This document shows positions 11,720-18,469 of a stretch of DNA of 64,000 bases, piece after piece. The DNA lies in contig BHEP01000001.1 of NCBI GenBank assembly GCA_003851245.1, positions 1-64,000 on the forward strand. Direction: 5' to 3'. Each line of letters begins with the position of its first letter. Position 1 is the first letter of the stretch. The stretch is from Bacteroidales bacterium (GTDB lineage: Bacteria > Bacteroidota > Bacteroidia > Bacteroidales > Azobacteroidaceae). Made by a program: the position numbers and the translations under genes. Under the pieces are notes generated by a model. That model ran no database searches. It was given only the letters and a program-made list of their open reading frames with translations, and was not told the origin of the DNA.

Positions 11720-12814
11720 ATGAGTGAAAAGAAAGTAAAGATAGGAATTACACATGGCGACATCAATGGAATTGGCTACGAGGTAATACTAAAGACTTTT
11801 GCCGATGATCGTATACTGGACTTCTGTATTCCGATTATTTATGGGTCGGGAAAGATTGCTGCTTACCACAGAAAGGCCTTGGATTTGAAATCTGCCAACA
11901 TGAACGTAATAAATCATGCCAGCGAGGCACTGCCAAATAAGGTAAATGTGATAAACTGTGTTGATGAGGAATTGAAAGTAGAATATGGCAAGGTAAGTAA
12001 GGAGGCTGGTAGGGCGGCTTTTTTAGCATTGGAGAGAGCGTCCGAAGACTTAGACAATAAATCTATTGATACCTTACTCACTGCCCCTATCAACAAATAT
12101 AGCATACAAGGCAATGATTTTGATTTTCCTGGGCATACAGAATATTTGGAGCATAGGCATGGCAATGGACAAAAAGCTCTAATGATTTTGACAAGCGATG
12201 ATTTGAGAGTAGCTCTCGTTACGGGTCACATGCCTTTGTCAGAAATATCAAGTACCCTTAGTACCGAGACAATTTTGGAAAAGCTGCTTATTTTTAATCA
12301 AAGTTTGAAAGTCGATTTTTGTATTTCTGCTCCACGTATCGCAGTACTTTCACTGAACCCTCATGCTGGTGAAGAAGGTTTGTTGGGCACAGAAGAAAGG
12401 GATATTATATCCCCCGCCATGGCGGCAGCCGACAAAAAAGGTATCTTGTGTTTTGGTCCTTTTGCAGCCGACGGTTTTTTTGGTTCCGGAGCTTTCTCTC
12501 GCTTCGATGGAGTGCTGGCAATGTATCACGATCAGGGTTTGATTCCTTTCAAGACTATGGTAATGGGCAATGGAGTCAATTTCACAGCAGGCCTACCAAT
12601 CATTAGAACTTCTCCCGACCATGGCACGGCATGCGATATTGCAGGGCAAAATAAGGCCTCAGAAAAATCCTTTCGTAATGCCTTGTATTTAGGAATAGAT
12701 ATTTTTCGCAATAGAAACTTCTATCAAGTAAGTGTAGAAAATCCCTTGAAGCGTCAGTATTATGATAGAGGAGGGGATAATGAAAGATTAGATCTTACCA
12801 AAGAGGATGCTTAA
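11720..12814 (+). CDS. pdxA: 4-hydroxythreonine-4-phosphate dehydrogenase
   Basis: PdxA oxidises 4-phosphohydroxy-L-threonine in DXP-dependent pyridoxal 5'-phosphate synthesis, using NAD and a divalent metal. The 364 residues carry the metal-binding histidines in the expected places: FPGHTEYLEH (about residue 137), YHDQGLIPFK (about 272) and TSPDHGTACD (about 299). The N-terminal IGITHGDINGIGYEV matches the family start. The protein is about 30 residues longer than E. coli PdxA, with extra sequence in the middle. Its stop codon is inside the loop of a small terminator hairpin, so transcription probably ends before the inositol locus. Confidence 0.95.
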   Translation: MSEKKVKIGITHGDINGIGYEVILKTFADDRILDFCIPIIYGSGKIAAYHRKALDLKSANMNVINHASEALPNKVNVINCVDEELKVEYGKVSKEAGRAAFLALERASEDLDNKSIDTLLTAPINKYSIQGNDFDFPGHTEYLEHRHGNGQKALMILTSDDLRVALVTGHMPLSEISSTLSTETILEKLLIFNQSLKVDFCISAPRIAVLSLNPHAGEEGLLGTEERDIISPAMAAADKKGILCFGPFAADGFFGSGAFSRFDGVLAMYHDQGLIPFKTMVMGNGVNFTAGLPIIRTSPDHGTACDIAGQNKASEKSFRNALYLGIDIFRNRNFYQVSVENPLKRQYYDRGGDNERLDLTKEDA

Positions 12815-12922: not shown

Positions 12923-13624
12923 ATGAATTACGCTATTATAGCTGCAGGAGAGGGTTCGCGCCTGCTGCACGAAGGAGTTGAAGCTCCCAAGCCCTTGGTT
13001 AGGCTCAACGGCATTTGCCTTATTGATAGGCTTATAGATATTTTTTTGCGCCAAGGAGCGAGTTCCATAAGCATCATTATCAATGAAGAAATGAAATTGG
13101 TGCAAGGGCACTTGTCACAAAGAACTATGGATATACCTTTCAAGGTGCTGGTTTGTTCTACGCCAAGCTCTATGCACAGTTTTTTTGAACTCAGCAAATT
13201 TCTTCCTGAAGGAAAATTTTGTTTGACAACGGTAGACACCATTTTTAAAGAAGATGAATTTGCAAAGTTTATAAGTGCTTTTTATAAGGATACGCAACAT
13301 GACGGCATGATGGCTGTAACATCTTTTATAGATGATGAAAAGCCTTTGTATGTTGCAGTAGAGGAGGGGAGTAATGCTATTAAGGGATTTTTAGATGAAG
13401 CGCCAGAAGATGCAAAATATATTTCTGGAGGAATTTATTGTCTCAATTCTATAGCGCTAAGAACTCTTGATACTTGCATGAGTAAAAATATTTCTAAGAT
13501 GCGCAACTTTCAGCGCGAATTGCTTGCAGACGGATTGTCATTACAGGCCTATCCTTTTGAAAAAATTGTTGATGTAGATCACATAGAAGATATAAATAAG
13601 GCCGAAGCTTTTTTACTATCATAG
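12923..13624 (+). CDS. Nucleotidyltransferase of the inositol-lipid locus
   Basis: A 233-residue NTP-transferase of the GT-A-like fold. The nucleotide-binding signature AAGEGSRL is at residues 7-14 with the lysine in APKPLV at about residue 24. TTVDTIF (about residue 106) supplies the metal-binding Asp. The closest known families are MobA-like and sugar-phosphate nucleotidyltransferases. Because the next genes are a CDP-alcohol phosphatidyltransferase and inositol-3-phosphate synthase, a likely role is to activate inositol phosphate as CDP-inositol, as the archaeal and thermophile IPCT domain does. That is inference from context; a sugar-1-phosphate substrate is also possible. It begins the locus after the pdxA terminator. 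Confidence 0.75.
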   Translation: MNYAIIAAGEGSRLLHEGVEAPKPLVRLNGICLIDRLIDIFLRQGASSISIIINEEMKLVQGHLSQRTMDIPFKVLVCSTPSSMHSFFELSKFLPEGKFCLTTVDTIFKEDEFAKFISAFYKDTQHDGMMAVTSFIDDEKPLYVAVEEGSNAIKGFLDEAPEDAKYISGGIYCLNSIALRTLDTCMSKNISKMRNFQRELLADGLSLQAYPFEKIVDVDHIEDINKAEAFLLS

Positions 13625-13661
13625 AAATAGTTTCAATAAAAATAAATACAGATGCAAACGC

Positions 13662-14537
13662 ATGAAAAATAAATTGCTAGGAGTAAGTCGAGGTAGTCAG
13701 TATTCGCCCAATCATATTGGAAATGATGCGGCAATTTTTGAACTTGCTGTAGAATATTTAAGAAAAAAAGGATATGAGGTTAATTTATGCTCAGAAAATG
13801 AATTCTTAGAAAAAAGTATAATAGAAGAGGATTTTATTTTCAATATGGCTAGAGACAAGAAGTCTATAGAAAGGTTGCAAGAGCAAGAAGATCTAGGCAA
13901 GATGGTTATCAATTCAGCCTATGGCATTACCAATTGTACCAGAGAAAAAATGACCACCCTACTTATTGACGCGCATATCCCTCATCCCAAGAGCGTTATT
14001 GTAGATACTGCCAATCCAGATCTTGCGGCCTTAAAAACTTTGGGAGATAAATGCTGGCTCAAGCGCGGAGATTTTCATGCCATCCATAGGGAAGATGTAA
14101 GTTTTTCGCGCAATCAGGAAGTTGCAGAGAATATACTCAGAGAATATTCTCTCAGGGGCATTACTAGAGCCGTTGTTAACGCACATCTCGAGGGCGATTT
14201 ATTGAAATTTTATGGGGTAGAGGGCACTGATTTTTTCTATTGGTTTTATCCCAACGAATCTAGTCACAGCAAGTTTGGTCTGGAGAAAATAAATGGCTTT
14301 TCGCAGGGCATACCCTTTGATTTGAGCTACTTGCAGCAAATATGCAATAAGGCAGCATCGACACTGAATATACAGATTTATGGGGGCGACTGCGTGGTAG
14401 GGTATGATGGAAACATGAAAATCATTGATTTCAATGACTGGCCGAGTTTCGCTCCTTGTAGGCAGTCTGCCGCACCCTATATTGCAGAATGTATAAGCAA
14501 TAAGGTAATGGAATATAAACACGCACTAATTTTATAA
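13662..14537 (+). CDS. Uncharacterised ATP-grasp protein
   Basis: A 291-residue protein that I read as ATP-grasp. It has a pre-ATP-grasp N-terminal region (GVSRGSQYSPNHIGNDAAIF), a CWLKRGDF segment with the nucleotide-binding lysine, a second basic strand (GDLLKFYGVEG), and the metal-binding end motif MKIIDFNDWPSFAPCR, where Asp and Asn replace the more usual Glu/Asn pair. ATP-grasp enzymes make an acyl phosphate from a carboxylate and join it to an amine or thiol; some phosphorylate inositols (ITPK-type). The gene is 37 bp after the nucleotidyltransferase and its stop overlaps the next ATG by 1 nt, which strongly couples it to lipid synthesis. The exact substrate is not known to me. Confidence 0.7.
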   Translation: MKNKLLGVSRGSQYSPNHIGNDAAIFELAVEYLRKKGYEVNLCSENEFLEKSIIEEDFIFNMARDKKSIERLQEQEDLGKMVINSAYGITNCTREKMTTLLIDAHIPHPKSVIVDTANPDLAALKTLGDKCWLKRGDFHAIHREDVSFSRNQEVAENILREYSLRGITRAVVNAHLEGDLLKFYGVEGTDFFYWFYPNESSHSKFGLEKINGFSQGIPFDLSYLQQICNKAASTLNIQIYGGDCVVGYDGNMKIIDFNDWPSFAPCRQSAAPYIAECISNKVMEYKHALIL

Positions 14538-15457
14538 TGACAAATAATATAAAAAAGAGCAGACCTAGCATAGAATCTACTCTTAAATCTGCGGATACAG
14601 AAGAGTTTATAGACATATATTTCTACCGCCCTATAGGCTATCGCTGGGCCTTGTTTTTCGACAAGCTGGGAGTTACACCCAACCAGATAAGTATAGCCTC
14701 TATTTTTCTGGGCGTTGGTGCAGGCATTTGTTTTTATTATCACGACTTATATCTTAATTTATTGGGAGTCTTTTTGCTCGTTTGGGCAAACTCTTACGAC
14801 AGTGCCGATGGTCAATTGGCGCGCATGACGGGGCAAAAGTCCAATTTGGGGCGTATGCTAGACGGTGCCTGTGGCGATTTTTGGTTCATCTCAATCTATT
14901 TGGCCATTGTATTTAAAATGTTTCCCTATTGGTCGTTTTGGATACTAGCCTTGGCAGCCGCGGCGGGTTATTTTCATAGCAAGCAGGCTGCAATGGCAGA
15001 TTATTATCGCAATATTCACCTGTTTTTTCTAAAGGGAAAATCAGGAAGCGAGCTCGACAACACCAAAGATTTGGCAGAAAAATATAAGGCCCTAAGCTGG
15101 GAAAATAATTTTATGGTAAAAACCTTTGAGACTTTTTATCTAAGATATACCGGCAATCAGGAAAAGGCATCACCAAAATTCCAGTTGATGCAACACTCTC
15201 TGCACAAAAAATATCAAGGGGAGGCAGCACCAGAATGGTTTAGGAGCGAGTTTCGCTCACTCAGCCTGCCCCTGATGAAGTATACCAATATTTTATCATT
15301 CAACACTAGGGCCATCGTGCTCTTTGTAAGCGTGCTTACAGGTTTTCCATGGGTATATTTTGTTTTTGAGCTAACGATACTCAATTTTATACTCGTTTAT
15401 ATGATAAAAAAACACGAGTCTATATGTGTAAAAATGACTAAAAAATTATTGGAATGA
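14537..15457 (+). CDS. CDP-alcohol phosphatidyltransferase (inositol-lipid synthase candidate)
   Basis: A 306-residue integral membrane enzyme with about six hydrophobic helices. The family motif is present: D88-x2-D91-G92-x2-A95-R96-x8-G105-x3-D109. The final aspartate is at 114, one residue later than the canonical D-x3-D spacing. Such enzymes displace CMP from a CDP-activated substrate and build the phosphodiester of phospholipids. Beside inositol-3-phosphate synthase the likely product is a phosphatidylinositol-phosphate or related inositol lipid. An extra hydrophilic block of about 70 residues (160-235) lies between helices. It overlaps the ATP-grasp gene by 1 nt and the HAD gene by 4 nt (ATGA). 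Confidence 0.85.
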   Translation: MTNNIKKSRPSIESTLKSADTEEFIDIYFYRPIGYRWALFFDKLGVTPNQISIASIFLGVGAGICFYYHDLYLNLLGVFLLVWANSYDSADGQLARMTGQKSNLGRMLDGACGDFWFISIYLAIVFKMFPYWSFWILALAAAAGYFHSKQAAMADYYRNIHLFFLKGKSGSELDNTKDLAEKYKALSWENNFMVKTFETFYLRYTGNQEKASPKFQLMQHSLHKKYQGEAAPEWFRSEFRSLSLPLMKYTNILSFNTRAIVLFVSVLTGFPWVYFVFELTILNFILVYMIKKHESICVKMTKKLLE

Positions 15458-16179
15458 TTGATATAAGTAAGATCGAAGGCATTATTTTTGACTATGGAGG
15501 CACCCTCGACAGCAATGGCAAGCATTGGGCAGAAGTTTTGTGGGAGGCCTACCAAGATAATAAGGTGCCGGTAGAGAAGATCGTCTTTCGTGAGGCCTAT
15601 GTTTATGGAGAGCGCTATTTGGCTATGCACCCTATTATAGAACCTCAGCATACATTCAAGGATTTGTTGGTATTGAAAGTCGACTTACAGCTAAAATGGC
15701 TGGTAGAAAATGGTTTTTTGCAGAAAAATGATAAAACTTCCTGCTTTTCACTTGCCATTTCAAATCAATGTTATAACTTTGCCGCTTGTGCATTGAAAAG
15801 AGCAGAACCCATACTCCAAAAGATGAGTAAAAAATATCCTTTGGTATTGGTATCTAATTTTTATGGCAATGTAGAGGCTGTTTTAGAAGATTTTGGACTT
15901 ACTAAGTATTTTCAAGAGGTTGTGGAATCGGCAGTTGTGGGAGTAAGAAAACCTGATCCCGCAATATTTGCTCTGGGAGTGAAAGCTCTAAATTTAAAAG
16001 CTGAGCAAGTGATTGTTATAGGAGATTCGCATGCTAAAGATATTGTTCCAGCAACAATAATAGCTTGCAAAACTATTTGGATTAAGGGAATTGCTTGGGA
16101 AGAAGAAACGGAAGATTTGACAGCCGACATTATTATTACCGATATAATGGAATTGTCAGAGATTTTTAATTTAGAATAA
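15454..16179 (+). CDS. HAD-superfamily phosphatase of the inositol-lipid locus
   Basis: A 241-residue HAD hydrolase. The nucleophile motif is IIFDYGGTLD (Asp13). Motif II is VLVSNFYG, motif III has the Lys in GVRKPDPAIF, and motif IV is VIGDSHAKDI. The residue two after the nucleophile is Gly15 rather than the usual Asp acid/base, so the catalytic step may differ from classic HAD phosphatases. A helical cap lies between residues 20 and 110. By context it may remove the phosphate from phosphatidylinositol phosphate to give phosphatidylinositol. The ATG overlaps the preceding stop by 4 nt, which indicates translational coupling. Confidence 0.83.
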   Translation: MIDISKIEGIIFDYGGTLDSNGKHWAEVLWEAYQDNKVPVEKIVFREAYVYGERYLAMHPIIEPQHTFKDLLVLKVDLQLKWLVENGFLQKNDKTSCFSLAISNQCYNFAACALKRAEPILQKMSKKYPLVLVSNFYGNVEAVLEDFGLTKYFQEVVESAVVGVRKPDPAIFALGVKALNLKAEQVIVIGDSHAKDIVPATIIACKTIWIKGIAWEEETEDLTADIIITDIMELSEIFNLE

Positions 16180-16242
16180 AATGATACGACTGATTACTTT
16201 TTTCAGCCGCAAATAAAAAAAGTATTATTTAAAATAAACGTT

Positions 16243-17541
16243 ATGAAAAAAAATCAGGTAAAAGAGGCCAAAGGTAAACTAGGCGTTCTTGTCGTTGGTG
16301 TTGGAGGAGCAGTTGCCTCCACATTTATTGCTGGATCATTAATAGCCCGCAAGGGTCTAGGGGTTCCAGTAGGATCGATCACTCAATTGGCAACCATAAG
16401 GTTGGGCAAAAGAGAGGAAAATCGTTTTCCTAAAATCAAGGATGTGGTGCCATTGGCTCAATTAAATGATTTGATTTTTGGAGGTTGGGACATATTTGAA
16501 GACAATGTTTATGCTGCCGCCACCCATGCAGAGGTTTTGACAAAAGACCACATAAACATGGTGAAAGATGAGTTGGAGGCTATCAAGCCTATGAAGGCCG
16601 TTTTTGATCAACACTATGTGAAGCGCTTGAATGGCACCTGGGTAAAGTCGGCTCCTACAAAATGGGAATTGATGGAGCAGCTACGTGCAGATATTCGTAA
16701 TTTTAAGGCTGACAATAACTGCGACCGTATTGTTTGTATATGGTGTGGTAGCACTGAGATTTTTACTCAGCTGGGAGATATTCATAAAACCCTGCCTGCC
16801 TTAGAAAAGGCTATGAAAGAAAATCATGAAGAAATAGCTCCGTCTATGCTTTATGCCTACGCCTGTGTGGCCGAAGGAGTTGCATATATAAATGGAGCTC
16901 CCAACTTAACAGTTGATATGCCTGCTATCTGGGATTTTGCTGCTAAAAATGTAGTGCCTATTTTAGGAAAAGATTTCAAGACGGGTCAAACAATGCTAAA
17001 AACAGTGCTCGCTCCAATGTTAAAAACACGTATGCTTGGTTTGAGCGGGTGGTTTTCTACAAATATATTGGGAAATAGAGACGGTGAGGTATTGGACGAT
17101 CCAGGATCATTCAAGACAAAGGAAGAGTCTAAACTTTCGGTTATCGACAACATCCTTCAGCCAGAGCTCTATCCAGAACTTTATGGAGATGTATATCATA
17201 AGGTGCGTATCAATTATTATCCACCTCGCAAAGACAACAAAGAAGGATGGGACAATATCGACCTCTTCGGATGGTTGGGCTACCCAATGCAGTTGAAGGC
17301 AGATTTCCTTTGCCGCGACTCTATCTTGGCAGCTCCTCTATGTCTCGACTTAGTGCTATTTACCGACCTAGCGCAACGTGCTGGAATGGGAGGTATTCAG
17401 ACCTGGTTGTCATTTTATTTTAAGAGTCCTATGCACGACGACAATCATATTGCAGAGCATGACTTGTTTATTCAATATGTGAAATTAAAAAATACTCTCC
17501 GAACCATTATTGGCGAAGAGACAATAGACTTCATGGATTAA
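16243..17541 (+). CDS. ino1: Inositol-3-phosphate synthase
   Basis: The enzyme converts glucose 6-phosphate to L-myo-inositol 3-phosphate with NAD as a recycled cofactor, the committed step of inositol synthesis. The 432 residues begin with a Rossmann motif (VLVVGVGGAVASTFIAG) and contain the family regions KPMKAVFDQHYVKRL, the NAD-binding stretch CIWCGSTE, APNLTVD and GKDFKTGQTMLKT, which includes the catalytic lysine region. The length fits bacterial and actinobacterial-like Ino1 proteins. It sits 63 bp after the HAD gene and supplies the headgroup for the lipid enzymes upstream. A terminator follows the gene. Confidence 0.95.
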   Translation: MKKNQVKEAKGKLGVLVVGVGGAVASTFIAGSLIARKGLGVPVGSITQLATIRLGKREENRFPKIKDVVPLAQLNDLIFGGWDIFEDNVYAAATHAEVLTKDHINMVKDELEAIKPMKAVFDQHYVKRLNGTWVKSAPTKWELMEQLRADIRNFKADNNCDRIVCIWCGSTEIFTQLGDIHKTLPALEKAMKENHEEIAPSMLYAYACVAEGVAYINGAPNLTVDMPAIWDFAAKNVVPILGKDFKTGQTMLKTVLAPMLKTRMLGLSGWFSTNILGNRDGEVLDDPGSFKTKEESKLSVIDNILQPELYPELYGDVYHKVRINYYPPRKDNKEGWDNIDLFGWLGYPMQLKADFLCRDSILAAPLCLDLVLFTDLAQRAGMGGIQTWLSFYFKSPMHDDNHIAEHDLFIQYVKLKNTLRTIIGEETIDFMD

Positions 17542-17575
17542 TTTTTAGGATTAATTTTCAAGATTAATTTTTTAG
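17535..17575. repeat. Three 13-bp tandem units on the ino1 stop codon
   Basis: GGATTAATTTTTA (17535-17547) is followed by GGATTAATTTTCA (17548-17560) and AGATTAATTTTTT (17561-17573). The ino1 TAA (17539-17541) lies in the first unit. Confidence 0.85.
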
Positions 17576-17592
17576 TCTGTTCACAATAATCT

Positions 17593-17632
17593 AAAAGAGC
17601 AGGGAACAGCATTTTGTTTCTTGCTCTTTTTG
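17593..17632 (+). terminator. Terminator after ino1
   Basis: AAAAGAGCA and TTGCTCTTTT pair around an inner stem (GGAACA with TGTTTC), followed by a short T-run. It separates ino1 from the acyltransferase gene 16 bp later. Confidence 0.75.
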
Positions 17633-17647
17633 TCTTAAAATAAAACG

Positions 17648-18469
17648 ATGAAGGATAAGTTAATAAGCATAGAGGATATAAAAAAACTGCATCCCATATT
17701 CAAGAAATCTTATGGTGAGCGTTTGGCAAAAATACTCATCAGGGTGCTGGGGCTGTACAATGTAAATAAAATCTATGATAGAGCAAAATACGAGAAGGGA
17801 ACAGACATAGAAGACAATATGATTGAGGGTCTAGGCATCCACAAAAAGCTTCACAACATAGAGGTGCTGGAGCAATTTGAAGGACAGGCTTTTATCACTG
17901 TTTCCAATCATCCTTATGGGCATATCGATGGCATCTCTCTTGTGGGAGAGGTGGCTAAGAAAAGAGCAGACTACAAATTGATGGTCAATTGGGTTTTGGG
18001 GATGATAGATATTATGGGCGATCATTTTATAGGAGTCAATCCATACAGTTCGGGCTCTATGGCAGAGCGTTCTAGCACCTCAGGAGTCAAGCAATGTATC
18101 ATGCACTTGAAAGAAAATCATCCCTTAGGGTTTTTTCCTGCAGGGGCAATTTCAAAGAATAAATTCACCAAAATAGAAGATAGGGAATGGCAGGAAAGCG
18201 TAATCAAGCTAATAAAAAAGTCAAATGTACCCGTTATCCCTGTGTTTATATCGGGCAGCAATTCCTGGTTTTTTAATTTTCTCGACCTTGTCAATTGGAG
18301 GCTTCGATCACTGCGCCTTTGTCACGAGCTATACAACAAAAAAGGGAAAACTATTCACCTAGTTTTTGGAGAGCCAATACCAGCTCACGAGATAAAGTCT
18401 TTTGACGACATTAAACTATTGGGGGAATTTCTCAAAAATAGCACCTATAAATTGAAAGATAGAATATAA
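17648..18469 (+). CDS. Lysophospholipid acyltransferase (PlsC-like superfamily)
   Basis: A 273-residue protein with the acyltransferase signature SNHPYGHIDG (residues 86-95). The spacing His88-x5-Asp94 is one longer than the HX4D of PlsC and is the form seen in hemolysin-type acyltransferases (NHPxGGxDG). A second block, FFPAGAISKNKF, corresponds to the glycerophosphate-binding FPEG motif. It probably transfers an acyl chain from acyl-ACP or acyl-CoA to a lyso-lipid. Its position after ino1 suggests work on the same inositol lipid or on an aminoacyl lipid, but a terminator lies between, so co-regulation is uncertain. A tandem repeat follows its stop directly. Confidence 0.8.
   Translation: MKDKLISIEDIKKLHPIFKKSYGERLAKILIRVLGLYNVNKIYDRAKYEKGTDIEDNMIEGLGIHKKLHNIEVLEQFEGQAFITVSNHPYGHIDGISLVGEVAKKRADYKLMVNWVLGMIDIMGDHFIGVNPYSSGSMAERSSTSGVKQCIMHLKENHPLGFFPAGAISKNKFTKIEDREWQESVIKLIKKSNVPVIPVFISGSNSWFFNFLDLVNWRLRSLRLCHELYNKKGKTIHLVFGEPIPAHEIKSFDDIKLLGEFLKNSTYKLKDRI

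Follow-up and report, generated by a model that had tools for sequence, protein, structure and literature searches.

A candidate ATP-grasp inositol kinase in the alternative inositol-lipid gene cluster of Bacteroidales

The window, i.e. the whole stretch of 64,000 nucleotides that was analysed, harbors a tight same-strand operon that extends from position 12923 to 18469 (Table 1), with gaps of about 37, -1, -4, 63 and 106 bases between its genes. The second gene, which is the subject of this study, encodes a protein of 291 amino acids; it starts with ATG and ends with a TAA stop codon at 14535–14537. The overlap of this stop with the next ATG by a single nucleotide, which had been claimed in the original prediction, is real. 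The junction TTTTATAATGACA contains the motif TAATG, whose base 14537 is common to the stop of the ATP-grasp gene and the start of the phosphotransferase gene, and the two genes are presumably translationally coupled. However, the genes for the phosphotransferase and the HAD protein also overlap, here by four bases (ATGA), and such coupling would thus be common to the operon and not peculiar to the ATP-grasp/phosphotransferase pair. A pdxA gene (11720–12814) is located just upstream of the cluster and is kept in most close relatives. The acyltransferase gene at the downstream end lies beside the inositol cluster in many members of the window's own family and is present in 17 of 27 relative loci; its product may make the lipid acceptor.

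Table 1. Genes of the inositol-lipid operon in the window and the evidence for their assignment
Product	Position	Strand	Evidence
NTP transferase, likely inositol-phosphate cytidylyltransferase (makes CDP-inositol)	12923..13624	+	PF00483 1.6e-8
ATP-grasp protein, proposed inositol (phosphate) kinase	13662..14537	+	AlphaFold2/Foldseek, ITPK profile match, PF05770 match of L216, synteny, fusion, co-occurrence
CDP-alcohol phosphotransferase, Kennedy type	14537..15457	+	PF01066 8.6e-10
HAD-superfamily protein, motif I DYGGT	15454..16179	+	PF00702 8.4e-17; alignment A4
myo-Inositol-3-phosphate synthase (MIPS)	16243..17541	+	PF07994 6.2e-108, PF01658 1.8e-32
Lysophospholipid-type acyltransferase (GlsA/OlsF-like)	17648..18469	+	PF19576 2.7e-21; NCBIfam OlsF/GlsA below cut-off

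A Pfam search with the 291-aa protein returned no match, and NCBIfam provided weak matches to MptN and RimK (2.9e-9 and 5.9e-4) that are far under the cut-off (MptN 36.4 vs 350; rimK_fam 19.3 vs 143.4; LysX 17.4 vs 275.6). The AlphaFold2 model, which was established from 108 homologues, exhibits an ATP-grasp fold with a mean pLDDT of 95.6 and a pTM of 0.91, and the best 50 of its 654 Foldseek matches in the PDB at E<=1e-3 are all ATP-grasp enzymes. Model and matches confirm the ATP-grasp fold that the original prediction had proposed. The best structural matches are ligases, headed by ArgX, PsnB (which makes graspetides) and D-Ala-D-Ala ligases (Ddl), and not inositol 1,3,4-trisphosphate 5/6-kinases (ITPK). 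The comparison of the family profile with PDB sequences places the ITPK of Entamoeba first (5.9e-9, a score that is the sum of three fragments, one of them non-collinear, and has to be read with care), followed by PsnB (1e-5) and the ITPKs of plants and human (1e-4 to 1e-3). The ITPK signal is mostly located in the C-terminal ATP/Mg block. One divergent member of the family, L216, exceeds the curated cut-off of PF05770 (Ins134_P3_kin; 26.3 vs 23 bits) and four of the 108 members match this profile at E<=0.01, but the window protein itself has no match that reaches the cut-off. We regard it as a relative of ITPK and not as a member of this family.

The residues that bind ATP and magnesium and the catalytic lysine K182 are conserved throughout the 108 members, with K134 and K182 in 100% and D243, D256 and N258 in 99% of the sequences, so that the ATP-binding lysine as well as the acidic and asparagine ligands of an ATP-grasp enzyme are present. 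Two blocks are nearly invariant: the catalytic IIDFNDWPSF, which contains D256-x-N258, and LLKFYGV with the lysine on the catalytic strand. In the printed profile alignments the ITPKs show D-V-N or D-L-N at the equivalent places, whereas PsnB has E-L-N plus an arginine. The window protein differs from the amino-acid ligases RimK, ArgX and MptN in the same way, since D-x-N replaces their E-x-N and its HMM scores lie below the respective cut-offs. At the level of sequence, the D-x-N motif and the lysine at the catalytic positions favor phosphotransfer to a hydroxyl group over acyl-phosphate ligation, and hence a kinase-type rather than a ligase-type ATP-grasp enzyme.

The neighboring genes point to the activation of inositol. 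The archaeal IPCT/DIPPS family is among the best NCBIfam matches of the cytidylyltransferase, albeit below the cut-off, and its top PDB profile match (4jd0, 1.6e-8) is the inositol-1-phosphate cytidylyltransferase of Thermotoga (PMC12275187). The phosphotransferase exhibits the signature DSADGQLAR...GRMLDGACGD and matches the PDB profiles of AF2299 (6.8e-12), human-type choline/ethanolamine phosphotransferases (about 2e-5) and IPCT/DIPPS (4mnd). With its NTP transferase, CDP-alcohol phosphotransferase, HAD protein and MIPS, the region 12923–17541 corresponds to the “putative alternative” inositol-lipid cluster that Heaver et al. 2022 described for B. vulgatus-like strains and Prevotella (PMC9246714), for which a pathway proposal had been published that the original prediction missed. 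These authors proposed that CDP-inositol and diacylglycerol are converted to phosphatidylinositol (PI) in Kennedy fashion, with the HAD protein acting as PI-dihydroceramide synthase (PMC9246714). Our profile searches support the first two of their assignments, i.e. cytidylyltransferase and phosphotransferase. The alternative route is common in Prevotella, and PI-dihydroceramide of the ordinary kind is reported for two of its carriers, B. vulgatus and P. veroralis (PMC9246714). The route is still putative, and its published version includes no kinase: none is named by Heaver et al. 2022, and the ATP-grasp protein is absent from the text of the paper (PMC9246714). In B. vulgatus the spacing of the locus tags BVU_RS13095 (NTP transferase), RS13105 (transferase) and RS13115 (HAD) leaves room for a single gene between the first two, which would be the slot of the ATP-grasp gene.

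A single-sequence scan of the genome contigs recovered no confirmed relative, but the alignment-based database scan provided at least 551, and the 80 that were kept include sequences from Parabacteroides, Tannerella, Dysgonomonas, Prevotellaceae and Muribaculaceae. Linkage was assessed for 152 distinct homologues, and the number of testable loci differs for each neighbor gene. Of the 150 loci that could be tested for the cytidylyltransferase, 122 have it fused or adjacent to the ATP-grasp protein and a further 21 have it at a distance of up to 6 kb; the corresponding values for the phosphotransferase are 126 of 148 and 16. A HAD gene is present in the cluster in 136 of 144 loci and MIPS in 103 of 132. 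All these counts include close relatives with shared ancestry and should not be read as numbers of independent events, although the pattern recurs in many families and extends to another part of the phylum. The original prediction had asked if the gene is always next to the phosphotransferase; this is almost always the case, and its homologues are thus not found mostly away from lipid genes. The association with the upstream cytidylyltransferase, which had been overlooked, is at least as tight, even though some loci lack a cytidylyltransferase nearby. The usual position of the ATP-grasp gene is, with very few exceptions, between the two partner genes. Of 60 relatives, 27 possess a homologue, which is always part of this cluster, contig ends aside.

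A strong homologue was found in 52 of 393 Bacteroidales genomes. The cytidylyltransferase occurs in 51 of these 393 genomes and is accompanied by the ATP-grasp gene in 50 of them, usually at a distance of less than 100 bases. The only exception (G075) looks degenerate because its locus retains a remnant of cytidylyltransferase-phosphotransferase (425 aa) and fragments of the HAD gene (L188). At least 18 homologues are fused to the cytidylyltransferase, and triple fusions of cytidylyltransferase, ATP-grasp protein and phosphotransferase were identified in L048 (836 aa) and L211 (820 aa). All three protein classes of a Kennedy-type pathway are accordingly present and adjacent, and in two cases they form one polypeptide. 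The ATP-grasp gene is a consistent and overlooked member of a known cluster. Fusions of the phosphotransferase with the HAD protein were found seven times (L041, L044, L045, L047 and others), as previously reported for P. veroralis by Heaver et al. 2022 (PMC9246714). The whole cluster is also kept in a strongly reduced genome of about 1 Mb (G008), in which a frameshift interrupts the ATP-grasp gene at a stretch of ten A's (L053, 9195–9360), reflecting either a pseudogene, transcriptional slippage or an assembly error.

In a Kennedy pathway a kinase has to act ahead of the cytidylyltransferase, and the ATP-grasp protein suggests itself for this role. We give about even chances to the reading that it catalyzes the first step of such a pathway for inositol, i.e. 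that it is the kinase that activates inositol. It would phosphorylate myo-inositol with ATP, most likely as free inositol and possibly as inositol 3-phosphate, and pass the inositol phosphate to the neighboring cytidylyltransferase for conversion to CDP-inositol. The phosphotransferase would then put phosphoinositol on diacylglycerol or ceramide. MIPS would be an optional supplier of inositol from glucose-6-phosphate, whose phosphate is perhaps stripped by the HAD protein. The triple fusions of L048 and L211 would be the whole three-step pathway in one chain. Fold, kinase-type residues, near-absolute linkage, gene fusion and the retention of the cluster in genomes without detectable MIPS are computed results, from which we infer the activity, the substrate, the phosphorylated position and the order of the steps. 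The idea of the original prediction that inositol is further phosphorylated is hence retained in one respect, as the ITPK-type signal favors phosphorylation, but the enzyme likely serves to feed the cytidylyltransferase and not to phosphorylate the finished headgroup any further; the PI-dihydroceramide of B. vulgatus and P. veroralis is reported to be ordinary (PMC9246714).

The distribution of MIPS bears on this reading. Using two MIPS types as queries, none was detected in P. distasonis, P. chinchillae, P. faecalis, Parabacteroides sp. ZJ-118, a Tannerella sp., G322 and G384, but all seven genomes keep the cytidylyltransferase, the ATP-grasp protein, the phosphotransferase and the HAD protein. 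The assumption that the cluster always occurs together with MIPS is therefore rejected, and such species would have to import and phosphorylate inositol. Incorporation of exogenous myo-inositol is stated for T. forsythia in the title of Megson 2015 (cited in PMC9246714), the genome in our set being that of a Tannerella sp., and B. thetaiotaomicron with its PIP-DAG route introduces only very minor amounts of exogenous inositol into lipids (PMC9246714). The operon of G218 contains a different MIPS type (L211, 12107–13285; PF01658, with PF07994 not over the cut-off), a non-orthologous replacement of the usual one that lies beside the triple-fusion gene.

The role of the HAD protein is less straightforward. 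In its motif I, DYGGT, the second aspartate of the canonical DxDGT, i.e. the general acid/base, is replaced by glycine, and the next aspartate, D19, is invariant (alignment A4); its chemistry may thus be unusual for a phosphatase. The retention of the gene in genomes without detectable MIPS weakens a simple role in dephosphorylating the MIPS product, and the protein is probably not merely a phosphatase of this kind. Its published assignment as PI-dihydroceramide synthase is unlikely, because the soluble HAD fold is unrelated to PAP2/AUR1-type synthases and hybrid clusters contain a separate gene for a PAP2-type synthase. These hybrids (L185, L152, L201) combine the ATP-grasp gene with B. thetaiotaomicron-type genes for PIP synthase, PAP2 synthase and GtrA; PgpA is also found in L185 and L152, and HAD is absent from two of the three. 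The search for HAD was negative in three genomes of one family, namely, G174, G346 and G409. The first two carry a B. thetaiotaomicron-type PIP synthase, and G346 has in addition a PgpA-type phosphatase in the cluster. In G174 the ATP-grasp gene is accompanied by MIPS, PAP2-type synthase, PIP synthase and GtrA, but the cytidylyltransferase and the phosphotransferase of the cluster are both missing, which does not fit the kinase reading unless the ATP-grasp product feeds the PIP route.

Further indications come from two Ignavibacteria-like families outside the class (f135 and f153). The genes mlaE, mlaF and mlaD are located in the cluster or joined to it in seven of eight loci, and a class-III aminotransferase occurs together with a GFO/IDH/MocA oxidoreductase in seven of nine. 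Among curated families the oxidoreductase is closest to inositol 2-dehydrogenase, with a score below the cut-off. Two ATP-grasp genes in tandem are present in four of the seven aminotransferase loci (L248, L249, L251, L253), a single one in the others (L247, L250, L255), and a tandem is found in none of the four out-group loci without an aminotransferase. This combination of genes suggests that the ATP-grasp enzyme acts on a cyclitol and that an amino-inositol phospholipid pathway may exist in this lineage; we regard both as leads from small numbers.

Four other readings were weighed against the inositol Kennedy kinase. The first, which we consider unlikely, holds that the enzyme makes a bisphosphate from inositol 3-phosphate, the product of MIPS, so that a phosphorylated PI lipid is formed from which HAD removes the extra phosphate; kinase and phosphatase would thereby shift the phosphodiester to D-1. 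The ATP-grasp inositol kinases known to us indeed act on phosphorylated inositols, the HAD gene is near-universal and even kept where no MIPS was found, and the B. thetaiotaomicron-type genes of the HAD-negative genomes G174 and G346 plus the PgpA-type phosphatase beside the latter cluster leave room for this scenario. However, it requires inositol 3-phosphate and leaves the genomes without detectable MIPS unexplained; moreover, no HAD gene was found in G409 either, a genome without a strong PIP-synthase match, and some hybrids retain HAD and PgpA together (L152). We give little credence to an optional salvage kinase whose sole task is to convert imported inositol to inositol 3-phosphate, the compound also delivered by MIPS, for use by the lipid route that the cell happens to have. 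The retention of the cluster without detectable MIPS and the location of the G174 gene beside a PIP synthase, where its usual partners are missing, would agree with this proposal, but an optional enzyme should often be missing where MIPS is present, and the degenerate G075 is the only one of 51 cytidylyltransferase genomes without it.

The ligation of an amino acid or another acyl group to the inositol headgroup, as suggested in the original prediction, is very unlikely. Most ATP-grasp enzymes are ligases, and the best fold matches as well as the weak MptN/RimK matches belong to this class, but the catalytic D-x-N and lysine are of the kinase type, the ATP-grasp gene is tied to a soluble activation step and not to a late decoration, and the lipid reported for B. 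vulgatus and P. veroralis is ordinary PI-dihydroceramide (PMC9246714). A non-catalytic or regulatory partner of a cytidylyltransferase/phosphotransferase complex, which might account for the tight fusions and the gene order, is highly improbable in view of the essentially invariant ATP, Mg and catalytic residues in 108 diverse members and the tandem duplication with cyclitol-modifying genes in four Ignavibacteria-like loci.

If the ATP-grasp protein is the inositol Kennedy kinase, it supplies the missing first step and turns the alternative route into a directly testable three-enzyme pathway. This could explain why the pathway is kept in Parabacteroides and Tannerella without a detected inositol synthase, while B. 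thetaiotaomicron hardly uses exogenous inositol. The gene would serve as a marker for the alternative route and give the eukaryotic ITPK kinases a bacterial relative. In gut Bacteroidetes, inositol lipids have an influence on the capsule, the resistance to antimicrobial peptides and host fitness (PMC9246714). The most far-reaching version is tentative: an unrecognized bacterial family of ATP-grasp inositol kinases could represent the committed first Kennedy enzyme across Bacteroidota, with inositol synthesis being dispensable, and its duplicate in the Ignavibacteria-like lineage could, together with the aminotransferase and the dehydrogenase-like enzyme, make new amino-inositol phospholipids.

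The nearest solved proteins by sequence profile are the ITPKs (PF05770), which share the ATP-grasp fold and the C-terminal D-x-N catalytic block with the window protein. The latter differs by its own N-terminal signature (R10...SPN..ND22, R64) and by its location in bacterial lipid operons, whereas ITPK belongs to eukaryotic signalling. The Kennedy pathway with choline/ethanolamine kinase, cytidylyltransferase and phosphotransferase follows the same three-step logic and employs a related phosphotransferase, but the headgroup of the proposed route is inositol and its kinase would be of the ATP-grasp type instead of the protein-kinase-like fold of choline kinase. The DIP/archaetidylinositol route of hyperthermophiles (IPCT/DIPPS) likewise combines an inositol-phosphate cytidylyltransferase with a CDP-alcohol phosphotransferase, which are sometimes fused (PDB 4mnd). 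To our knowledge, it uses the MIPS product directly and has no ATP-grasp kinase. The PIP-DAG route of B. thetaiotaomicron (BT_1522-1526) also starts with MIPS and makes PI lipids, but it proceeds from CDP-DAG and inositol phosphate via a PgpA-type phosphatase, and no ATP-grasp step has been described for it. The alternative cluster of Heaver et al. 2022 comprises the same NTP transferase, CDP-alcohol phosphotransferase, HAD and MIPS genes as the operon of the window, often with an additional LPG-synthase-TM gene.
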